In this document: positions 30,926 to 59,835 of the stretch, in pieces
Layout of the letters: the number at the start of each line of letters is the position of its first letter
Numbering within the stretch: position 1 is the stretch's first letter
Notes under the pieces: generated by a model
Seen by the model: only the letters and a program-made list of their open reading frames with translations
What the model was told of the DNA's origin: nothing
The model's database searches: none
NCBI RefSeq assembly: GCF_001640025.1
Contig: NC_031672.1
Coordinates: 5,270,001 to 5,334,000 of the forward strand
DNA length: 64,000 bases
Direction of reading: 5' to 3'
Source of the DNA: Sugiyamaella lignohabitans
Lineage: Eukaryota > Ascomycota > Dipodascomycetes > Dipodascales > Trichomonascaceae
Made by a program: the position numbers and the translations under genes

Positions 30926-31672
30926 TTAAGAGGAAGGAGAAGGGTTGGACTTTCTCTTACCGTTGGTCAAAGTGACATTGACGAAACGACGAGTGTACAA
31001 AATTCTCTTCTTAGCACGTCCCTTAGGAACCTTCTTCTTTTCTTGCTTCTCGACCTTAGGAGTCATGGCCTTAACACGACCGGCACGAGCGAGAGATCCG
31101 TGAACTTTTCCCTGTAGAAGTTAGTATTTGAAAACAACCTAAGCAAGAAGTGCCATAGACTACTAGAATTTCATTTAGAACCAATACAAGACTGTAGGAC
31201 ATGGTAGTATGGAGAATTCAACCACCACAATAACGACAAGCAGAATAGAAAATAATTATCACTATAACTGATTTCAATACTAATTCGGACGGTGAGACCG
31301 GTTTCGGATATTTGATTGCACTTCTCGAGATTTATCGAACTTTTCTTGTTGACTTTCGTACTTTTTGAATAAAGAATATTGATCCCTCTGAGTTGTTCGA
31401 ATGTTGTCAGCTCCTGCCTATATACTCAGCTGGCGAGTGGCTACACATCTGAAAAAGGGCTCTAAATTCAAAACATATTCGTATAAAAACTGGTCAAAAC
31501 CCACATTTCGACGTGAACTTATGATGTTTCATTCTCGAGTATCGCCCGGCGTTGCTGAAAAGATCCAGTTCCACTTATTTGTCTATCCTTGCTTCCGTAC
31601 AGTCTCATACTCATTCTTTTAACTTCATTTTATCGTCTATTAACACAATCGTTCATGGTTTTTACGTACCAT
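30926..31672 (-). CDS. RPS30: 40S ribosomal protein eS30 (RPS30), ATG-only first exon
   Basis: Exon 1 is just the ATG (31672-31670); exon 2 is 31111-30926 (62 codons with stop). The 558-nt intron has a GTACGT donor and ATACTAACTTCTACAG at its 3' end. The 62-aa product starts [14 protein letters not shown] and ends [12 protein letters not shown], very close to yeast Rps30 (63 aa), and is extremely basic. It needs the splice, because exon 2 has no suitable ATG. The S. cerevisiae gene has its intron at about the same place. A perfect 16-bp Mcm1-type palindrome lies about 200 bp upstream. No snoRNA boxes seen in the intron. Confidence 0.96.
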
Positions 31673-32447
31673 TTTGAATTTTTGTTTTAGTTGGCGATAC
31701 GGTTACTGTAAGAGAGAAGGGGCAAATTTCTTGTGTAAGGTGCTGTTGGAAGCGCCTGCTTGGTGACTACACAGGGCAGGGTTAAAATGCCTTAAGAGGC
31801 ATCTGTATTATTGAGTGGGGGCATTGAGTCAGTTAGAAAGGTTTGTGACTGTGACTATGAAGTGCAGTTTCCTAAATAGGAAATCTAAAGTGGAATGTAC
31901 GAGAGCCAGCTTCACAAAAAATAGTAGCTGTTGAGCGGTGACTATAGAAACTGATAGGGCAGTTAGCAGAAGAATAGGATCACAGTAGGAGATAGTTACA
32001 TATTGTAGTGAGAAATATAATTGAATTTATAGCTTGCTAAACCATGCTATTATGCTCTTTACGCTGTTCTCGAATCACGCATGTCAAGTTCTGCAGGGCT
32101 CCGACACCCGAACCCTTATCATCTTATCATGGAGCATAATGGGCGGTTGGGTAAATATAAGAAGATCAAGATGAATATCTTGGTAGGATAAATCACGACT
32201 ACGCCAGGAACTACTGCTATATACATTGAAATAAATAGAGAATAAATAAGGGTAATTGTCGCATCTTCAAAACAGACCCCTGAGCAGTTCGGTTTTAAGC
32301 GACTACTCTAGAGCGTGATGTTGATGTAGGGCAAGTGAAATTTCCAGCACAAAGCTTAAACATTCGGACCATGGGCGCTTCTGTTCAAGGTATGTCTGGA
32401 GTTTCGTAAATTATGCCCTATGGCCAATCAATCAATGACCATAAAGG
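31673..32447. other. RPS30 upstream region
   Basis: 775 bp between RPS30 and the DUF202 gene stop. Contains the Mcm1-type palindrome at 31868-31883 and a short inverted repeat ATGCCT/AGGCAT at 31786-31801. No gene seen. Confidence 0.6.
31868..31883 (-). promoter_or_regulatory. RPS30: Mcm1-type CArG palindrome upstream of RPS30
   Basis: Read on the RPS30 strand it is TTTCCTATTTAGGAAA, a CC(A/T)6GG box inside a longer palindrome. It is nearly the P-box palindrome bound by Mcm1 (TTTCCTAATTAGGAAA). It ends about 195 bp before the ATG. The identical 16-mer in the same orientation precedes RPS24. Confidence 0.65.
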
Positions 32448-51424: not shown

Positions 51425-51440
51425 TTTCCTATTTAGGAAA
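51425..51440 (+). promoter_or_regulatory. RPS24: Mcm1-type CArG palindrome upstream of RPS24
   Basis: TTTCCTATTTAGGAAA, ending 162 bp before the ATG. Identical in sequence and relative orientation to the site upstream of RPS30. Confidence 0.65.
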
Positions 51441-51602
51441 TTTGAGTCACAATGCATGCTAGCAAGTACGCCCGTATTATGCAAGTGATTTTCCACTCAC
51501 AGCCAAAGGACTCGAAGAGTATCACTAAACCTGCGAACATAGTACTCAAGTAGTGTACCTTAGTATCTCCGTCGACAGAACCAAAGTATACAACAAATCA
51601 AG

Positions 51603-52446
51603 ATGGTACGTTTAAATCAGGAATGGGTAATAGATATTAGAAAGTATATGTCATGATTGTAGTGAATGTTGATACGAGGATTGAAAGAAGAATTTTCGAG
51701 TAATATTGCGAAGTAACTGGCCGTCCACGATGTACTGCTTCCAGGATCTTTCGAAAATGAATAATTAGAGGATATTAGACAGACGTTTTGCAATGTGGCA
51801 CAATTTTCGTGGACATCCTATTTATTTTTAATCGAATTATAAAGGTACTGCGGTTGAAGTTTAGAGTCGAAGTTATCAAAACTACAAGGAGAGCAACATA
51901 TTCAAAAATTAAACGATAAGCGCAGCTCGCAAGTCAAATATGCCAACCAGCAATCTCTTGTTTACTACCAATTTTCTTGATCTCATACTATTCTAATATC
52001 TGTTACCATAGCGCATACAAAGGCCCTAAAAAGACTAACATTATAATTAGAGTGAGGCTGTTACTATCAGAACCAGAAAGTTCATCAGAAACCCCCTTTT
52101 GGGACGTCGTCAATTTGTTATTGACGTTCTCCACCCCAACAGAGCTAACGTCTCCAAGGACGAACTCCGTGAGAAGCTCGCTACTATCTACAAGACCGAA
52201 AAGGATGCTGTTTCTGTCTTCGGATTCCGCACTCAATATGGTGGTGGTAAGTCCACTGGTTTCGGTTTGATCTACGACTCTGCTGAGGCCCTTAAGAAGT
52301 TTGAGCCTCGTTACCGTCTTGTTAGATACGGTTTTGCCGAGAAGATCGAGAAGGTTTCCAAGATCCAAAGAGCCCAAAAGAAGAACCGTGGTCTTAAGGT
52401 CAGAGGTACTGGCAAGAGACAAGCCAAGAGAACCAGAGGAGACTAA
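51603..52446 (+). CDS. RPS24: 40S ribosomal protein eS24 (RPS24), ATG-only first exon
   Basis: Exon 1 is only the ATG (51603-51605); exon 2 is 52051-52446. The 445-nt intron has a GTACGT donor and GACTAACATTATAATTAG at its 3' end. The 132-aa product starts [20 protein letters not shown] and continues [19 protein letters not shown], nearly identical to yeast Rps24 (135 aa). Architecture matches RPS30 here: ATG alone, then GTACGT. No C/D or H/ACA snoRNA boxes recognised in the intron. Convergent with BIG1. Confidence 0.97.
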
Positions 52447-58647: not shown

Positions 58648-59835
58648 TTAGATAGTCGTCTTTTCGATCTTGGCGGCAAGGTCATCGACTTCGTCGCTCT
58701 TTTCAGGGGCAACGTTTTCTTCCTCTTCTTCTTCTGCATCCTTGACAATATCCTCGAAACCACTCTCATTCTCATCTTCTTCCTCATCTTCATCATCTGT
58801 AAGCTCTTCCATGTCGTCCAACTCATCAATTTCACCAAATCCACGGTCTTCAAAAATTTTAGTGATGCTATCAACAGCCTCATGATCCTCAGAAAATCTG
58901 TTACCATTAATTTCAAGAGTCTTCAGATTGGGCAACTTCTTGGCAATTGCTTCACTGAGCAAATTAATACCATTGGATTCGATTTCATTGTATTGGAGTT
59001 TCAAAATCTCTAAATTGGGGAGCTCTTCGCCATCAACGATGGTCTGAGCAAAAATTTCACCGCCACGAGCTGACAGTAAACAGTCGCTAATACCTAACTC
59101 TTTGAGTTTTTTCCAATTGTGGAAAACTTTACTAAGTGCACGAGCGCCTCTTTCAGTCAAAGTGTTATCCTGTAGATCGAGCTTTTCTAATTCTGGAGAC
59201 TTAGCGAGTCCATTCAAAAACAAATGCTCTAAACCTTCCTGACGAATACCATTCTGATATAATCGTATTTCTTGGATAGATCCATGTGCAGCTAGGAATG
59301 ATGCCCAAGCCTCCATAGAACCGTTTTCCAAACGGTTACGACCACACAAAACAGTCTTCAGGGTAGGGCTGCCGTTGGCTTTTTTCACCTCAGCAAGCTT
59401 TTCCAATGCATTGGCGACTCTAGATCCAGCCAATGGGCCAAATCCATTATTCGATAAAAGTAAATGCTCCAAAGGACTGTGTTTAGCTAAGAATGATTCC
59501 AAAGGATCGATAGTGGCAATGCCAAATGCGTTATCGGAGAGATCAATGGTATGTAACTTTGGGCAGTTCAACAATGCAACAAGGATATCATCCAGGGAAT
59601 CAGGGATTTCACTTCGGATTCTACCAGTAAAAATATCAGATAAATTAGCGACCTCCAGGTCTTTTTTGGATGCAAGGCTCTTAGCGAGGGCTTCACAAGC
59701 TCCTTTACCATAAGAGTTACCAGTAAAATTTACTTCCCTGATATTTTCAAGCTGATCCAGCTTCTCCAAATAGGGTCTGATATCTGCCTCAGTATCAAAC
59801 TTCTTCCCTTGAACTTCAATAGAAAACGACGACAT
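58648..59835 (-). CDS. RNA1: RanGAP RNA1
   Basis: 395 aa from the ATG at 59835 (MSSFSIEVQGKKFD). About eleven leucine-rich repeats of the ribonuclease-inhibitor type are visible (LHTIDLSDNAFG, LEHLLLSNNGFG, LEKLDLQDNTL, LEILKLQYNEI). The conserved arginine-containing loop near GRIRSEIPDSL (residues ~70-80) corresponds to the RanGAP catalytic region. The C-terminus is highly acidic (ELTDDEDEEEDENESGF). It activates GTP hydrolysis by Ran/Gsp1 in the cytoplasm. Yeast Rna1 is 407 aa, so the length is normal. Tail-to-tail with the acyltransferase gene. Confidence 0.94.
   Translation of the reverse strand: MSSFSIEVQGKKFDTEADIRPYLEKLDQLENIREVNFTGNSYGKGACEALAKSLASKKDLEVANLSDIFTGRIRSEIPDSLDDILVALLNCPKLHTIDLSDNAFGIATIDPLESFLAKHSPLEHLLLSNNGFGPLAGSRVANALEKLAEVKKANGSPTLKTVLCGRNRLENGSMEAWASFLAAHGSIQEIRLYQNGIRQEGLEHLFLNGLAKSPELEKLDLQDNTLTERGARALSKVFHNWKKLKELGISDCLLSARGGEIFAQTIVDGEELPNLEILKLQYNEIESNGINLLSEAIAKKLPNLKTLEINGNRFSEDHEAVDSITKIFEDRGFGEIDELDDMEELTDDEDEEEDENESGFEDIVKDAEEEEEENVAPEKSDEVDDLAAKIEKTTI

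Follow-up and report, generated by a model that had tools for sequence, protein, structure and literature searches.

A candidate Mcm1-type P-box, commonly close to HomolD, upstream of most ribosomal protein genes of Sugiyamaella lignohabitans

Results

Two ribosomal protein genes (RPGs), RPS30 and RPS24, were identified by their Pfam families (PF04758, E 8.5e-27, and PF01282, E 9.2e-39, respectively) in the 64 kb stretch of Sugiyamaella lignohabitans DNA analysed here (the window). RPS30 (eS30) is on the minus strand, with its main exon at 30926..31111, while RPS24 (eS24) is on the plus strand, with its main exon at 52069..52446; both exons include the stop, and both have an approximate 5' edge. 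The ATG of each gene (31670..31672 for RPS30, 51603..51605 for RPS24) has GTACGT directly after it, which suggests that exon 1 consists of the ATG alone. An identical 16-mer, TTTCCTATTTAGGAAA, had been noticed upstream of both genes, at about 195 and 162 bp, with no third copy in the window. An exact search returned just these two places, at 31868..31883 on the minus strand, 195 bp ahead of the RPS30 ATG, and at 51425..51440 on the plus strand, 162 bp ahead of the RPS24 ATG. The word encloses a CC(A/T)6GG box (CCTATTTAGG), is near-palindromic over its complete length and, with its TT/AA flanks, has the form that we take to be the P-box of the MADS-box protein Mcm1. At RPS30, a first HomolD core (AGTCAC, 31851..31856, minus strand) comes 11 bp after the P-box when read on the gene strand, and the core of a second copy follows at a gap of 17 bp, within the octamer CAGTCACA (31844..31851, minus strand), the consensus given for HomolD in PMC10253590. 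Between HomolD and the RPS30 ATG is a GACTCA element (31825..31830, minus strand), which is strand-biased at RPGs (see below). The HomolD-like sequence of RPS24, GAGTCACA (51444..51451, plus strand), has its AGTCAC core 4 bp past the P-box.

Each of the two 16-mers also matches TTTCCTATTTAGGAAA on the opposite strand, with 2 mismatches, and the sole additional place in the window at up to 3 mismatches is 59110..59125 (3 mismatches). This gives a total of five matches at this level, a number reached by 2 of 100 shuffles. The bare core CCWWWWWWGG shows no enrichment in the window (3 matches vs a shuffle mean of 4.9). Across the whole genome (15,932,016 bases, 4 contigs), there are four exact copies of TTTCCTATTTAGGAAA, while about 0.02 are expected from the base composition of the window and the reversed control has none, in keeping with the earlier view that a chance match was very unlikely. 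The remaining two copies are found upstream of RPS28 (PF01200) and of an L27A/L15-family gene (PF00828) that is read as RPL28, and all four exact copies stand before RPGs. The pair in the window does share the same polarity, as originally noted, but this is not general: on the gene strand the centre reads TATTTA at RPS24 and RPS30 and TAAATA at RPS28 and RPL28, a 2:2 split, and shared polarity was dropped as a feature of the element. Polarity means little here in any case, because the word nearly equals its own reverse complement.

The distribution of the P-box was scored (out of 20) over a set of 77 RPGs. Seventy-three were found via queries, and their names are taken from the query position rather than from a family scan; RPS24, RPS30, RPS28 and RPL28 were read at their own sites and Pfam-scanned. 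RPL41, P1 and P2 were outside the search, and ASC1/RACK1, which was found through its site, was left out of the 77. Weak or other relatives (L032, L033, L065, L066, L067 and the matches at C1:5880974 and C1:1614499) were dropped before counting. The stretch scored was the 1 kb that precedes the first matched exon, and hence includes introns; it was full for 51 of the 77 rows and shorter than 1000 bp for 26. For RPL42, RPL35 and RPL37, just ~250-270 bp were scored, around a site known beforehand from a match to a looser pattern.

A strong P-box (score of at least 18) is present upstream of 61 of the 77 RPGs, compared to 0/62 of the 1-kb chunks of the window (excluding the two with TTTCCTATTTAGGAAA sites) and 29/1540 dinucleotide shuffles. 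At a score of at least 19 the corresponding numbers are 50/77, 0/62 and 4/1540, while lowering the threshold to 17 lets in more of the controls (71/77, 5/62 and 137/1540). A second control of 30 upstream kilobases contained no site scoring 18 or more (0/30); 25 of these belong to non-RPG open frames of the window, called mechanically at a length of at least 200 aa and not proved to be genes, and five to dropped relatives (L032, L033, L065, L066 and L067), three of which are read as mitochondrial ribosomal protein genes. When the seven rows found or read through their own site (RPL42, RPL35, RPL37, RPS24, RPS30, RPS28 and RPL28) are left out, 54/70 RPGs have a site at 18 or more, and 43/70 at 19 or more. 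These counts support the original prediction of a shared ribosomal-protein regulon element, and a general absence from other RPG promoters, which would have spoken against it, was not seen. The 16 RPGs with no strong P-box within the stretch scored include RPS31, RPP0, RPL7b and RPL9b. The last two are second matches (RPL7b at C4:1513103, RPL9b at C2:4331084); RPL9a has a strong site and RPL7a a weaker one, a contrast that possibly reflects diverged regulation of paralogues. Two local gene arrangements may be mentioned: RPL24 and RPL30 (L078) form a divergent pair with a common intergenic stretch, and RPS9 and RPL21 (C1:1381531-1384323) are near neighbours, each with a separate P-box.

Pattern searches gave a similar picture, dependent on stringency. 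The strict pattern TTWCCTWWWTRGGWAA occurs at 24 genomic places (reversed control, 4), of which 21 precede an RPG exon by no more than 1 kb. The other three are away from located RPGs: one (L018, C1:1780157) adjoins repeats, with no RPG seen, and the other two (L096, C2:860604; L097, C2:1771857) have no clear gene within ~500 bp. The looser pattern TTNCCNNWWNNGGNAA has 126 genomic places (reversed control, 54), and among the 50 matches listed, 20 have one of the 77 RPGs nearby and 30 do not. Many copies in unrelated places, raised earlier as an argument against a regulon element, are thus a property of the looser pattern and not of the strict one. One of the 30 (L011) precedes ASC1/RACK1, a ribosome-bound protein outside the 77; its P-box (TTGCCTAAAAAGGCAA, L011:1501-1516) has CAGTCACA close upstream. 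Around the 61 strong sites, the bases adjoining the scored 16 are commonly A before (45/61) and T after (49/61). When the flanks are compared in register (1830 pairs), their mean identity is 26% and the highest 41%; because the flanks are unrelated, the strong sites do not derive from a single copied segment. Several loci (L001, L002, L018, L097) share a dispersed, GC-rich repeat, GGCGGCTGGGGCTCCGCCCCAG or a variant of it, and a search of the window for three exact pieces of this type of repeat gave no match.

The top enriched 6-mer around the 61 strong sites is AGTCAC/GTGACT (46/61 vs 13/269 control stretches), which is the core of HomolD, CAGTCACA. In 43/61 cases it is no more than 40 bp away from the P-box, compared to 2.4% of random 96-bp windows, and when the core is written as [AG]GTCAC, on either strand, the count in this range rises to 46/61, with the other 15 lacking one. 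Overall, AGTCAC/GTGACT is found in 63/77 RPG upstream kilobases, its density in the window being 0.28 per kb. Among the 26 same-strand cores within 60 bp downstream of the P-box, 20 are at 3-7 bp and the other six at 9-19 bp; more cores are found upstream of the P-box or on the opposite strand. The spacing is therefore preferred rather than fixed, and HomolD occurs on either side and on either strand. Helical phasing is not claimed, the copies being too few. The composite GTGACTN{3,7}TTNCCNNNNNNGGNAA has 14 genomic places, all of them preceding an RPG exon by 1 kb or less, and its reversed control none. In fission yeast, HomolD serves RPGs as a TATA-like box and requires the TFIIB-like factor Rrn7 (PMC10253590). 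The S. lignohabitans genome encodes an Rrn7-type zinc ribbon at C3:789418, where a 617-aa open frame matches PF11781 over the cut-off, a level found in 0/14 control genomes.

Other elements accompany the pair at some RPGs. In the 120 bp that follow the P-box, GACTCA is found in 31/61 cases on the gene strand vs 2/61 as the reverse complement; none of the papers listed by a literature search for GACTCA in connection with RPGs contained the term. The 100 bp that precede the P-box contain CACGTG, presumably a Cbf1-like E-box, in 17/61 (e.g. L001, L002; random, 1.0%), and in 15/61 this hexamer has the extended form TCACGTGA (random, 0.1%). In the same range, TTAGGG/CCCTAA occurs in 9/61 (random, 3.3%). 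These positions suggest that part of the RPGs have a layered promoter, in the order Cbf1-like E-box, P-box, HomolD, GACTCA and ATG. The heptamer CCCTGCA/TGCAGGG, too, is enriched over the 100 bp ahead of the P-box (13/61; random, 0.7%).

Discussion

The genome has an Mcm1 orthologue (C1:5774041-5774289), with 81% identity to a yeast MADS segment; its translated MADS region matches the Mcm1 chain 1mnm (E 7.5e-43) and the SRF-TF Pfam family. Base counts at the 61 strong sites display the CC(A/T)6GG core, the TT/AA flanks and the near palindrome of a P-box, the CC and GG being partly so by construction. TTTCCTATTTAGGAAA is very probably a near-ideal Mcm1 site through which the RPG regulon is activated from upstream.

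A more trivial origin, by chance or through the dispersal or duplication of a DNA segment, might be suspected from the presence of dispersed repeats at several loci and from the window having no excess of CCWWWWWWGG over shuffles, but it is ruled out by the counts, four exact copies where ~0.02 are expected, all of them at RPGs, with none of the 30 control upstreams carrying a strong site, and by flanks that are at most 41% identical. That a different MADS protein of the MEF2 type (Rlm1/Smp1) occupies the site, tying RPGs to cell-wall or stress signalling, has a basis in the A/T-rich core typical of MADS sites and in the MADS domain that is common to MEF2 relatives. MEF2-type proteins favour CTA(A/T)4TAG, whereas the CC...GG frame and TT/AA flanks found here are those of the Mcm1 P-box, although the invariance of CC and GG among the 61 sites, which bears on this choice, is partly built into the score. 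RPG motifs of this clade have in addition been assigned to Mcm1 in the literature (PMC2253631, PMC6173580), and a MEF2-type occupant is considered very improbable.

Harder to set aside is the division of labour between the boxes. HomolD and the downstream GACTCA could form the true promoter core, with the P-box a minor and partly redundant helper. HomolD directs initiation by itself in fission yeast (PMC10253590), and among the 16 RPGs whose P-box is weak, 8 (such as RPL20) keep a HomolD core no farther than 40 bp from the best match. On the other hand, a strong P-box stands at 61/77 RPGs, 15 of which have no HomolD core in that range, and in Kluyveromyces lactis the scrambling of Mcm1 sites reduced the output of both RPG reporters tested (PMC6173580), so that a helper role for the P-box seems rather unlikely. 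Less probable still is that P-box and HomolD constitute a single composite core-promoter element in place of the usual TATA/TBP start, in which the MADS dimer would abut and directly position the TFIIB-like Rrn7 (or another HomolD factor), the strand-specific downstream GACTCA belonging to the same start machinery.

The reading of the P-box as an activating Mcm1 site leads to the following proposal. With the motif, its concentration at RPGs, the closeness and preferred spacing of HomolD, and genes for both Mcm1 and an Rrn7-type protein in place, we infer that these two proteins bind the P-box and HomolD, respectively, and cooperate through TFIID as a common target. TFIID and RNA polymerase II would be recruited or stabilised by the combined action of an Mcm1 dimer at the P-box and the factor that occupies HomolD, and the ~60 RPGs with a strong site would then be driven together, at a high level. 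Mcm1 of Saccharomyces cerevisiae binds Taf4, a subunit of TFIID (PMC6173580).

The closest precedent is the Yarrowia lipolytica clade, which has the same P-box at the same set of genes. Mcm1-like motifs were found at Y. lipolytica RPGs by Tuch et al. 2008 (PMC2253631), and Sorrells 2018 reports Mcm1 sites to be highly enriched at RPGs of the clade (PMC6173580). In clades without Rap1 regulation of RPGs, the latter paper describes Mcm1 sites as lying at varying distances from Tbf1/Rrn7 sites (Results) and as having a preferred spacing to them (Discussion); the term Sugiyamaella was not found in its main text. What is added here, for one genome, is the spacing to HomolD in bp, both orders of the boxes, and the coverage gene by gene. 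The Mcm1-Rap1 promoters of K. lactis, with Mcm1 sites at 70 RPGs (PMC2253631), and of other yeasts are similar in that most RPGs pair an Mcm1 site with that of a second RPG factor, and cooperation at TFIID has been proposed there as it is here. Their partner, however, is Rap1, with spacing peaks at 54, 65 and 74 bp in pooled species (PMC6173580), while the neighbouring box in S. lignohabitans is HomolD, mostly at 3-7 bp when downstream on the same strand. Schizosaccharomyces pombe likewise has the CAGTCACA octamer at short, variable distances from an activating site, and its HomolD is functional in either orientation (PMC10253590), but the activating neighbour in that species is HomolE (ACCCTACCCT, Fhl1) rather than a candidate Mcm1 P-box.

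S. lignohabitans is, accordingly, a further and clear case of a rewiring known from related yeasts; no description of the Mcm1-HomolD spacing at single-base level, or of the strand-specific GACTCA, was found in the literature searched. The recurrent acquisition of Mcm1 sites by RPGs is a well-studied instance of regulation evolving in parallel, to which the broad RPG regulon of this yeast (61/77) is now added, and the Mcm1-HomolD arrangement, resolved to single bases, makes the proposed cooperativity at TFIID testable with a partner box other than that of Rap1.
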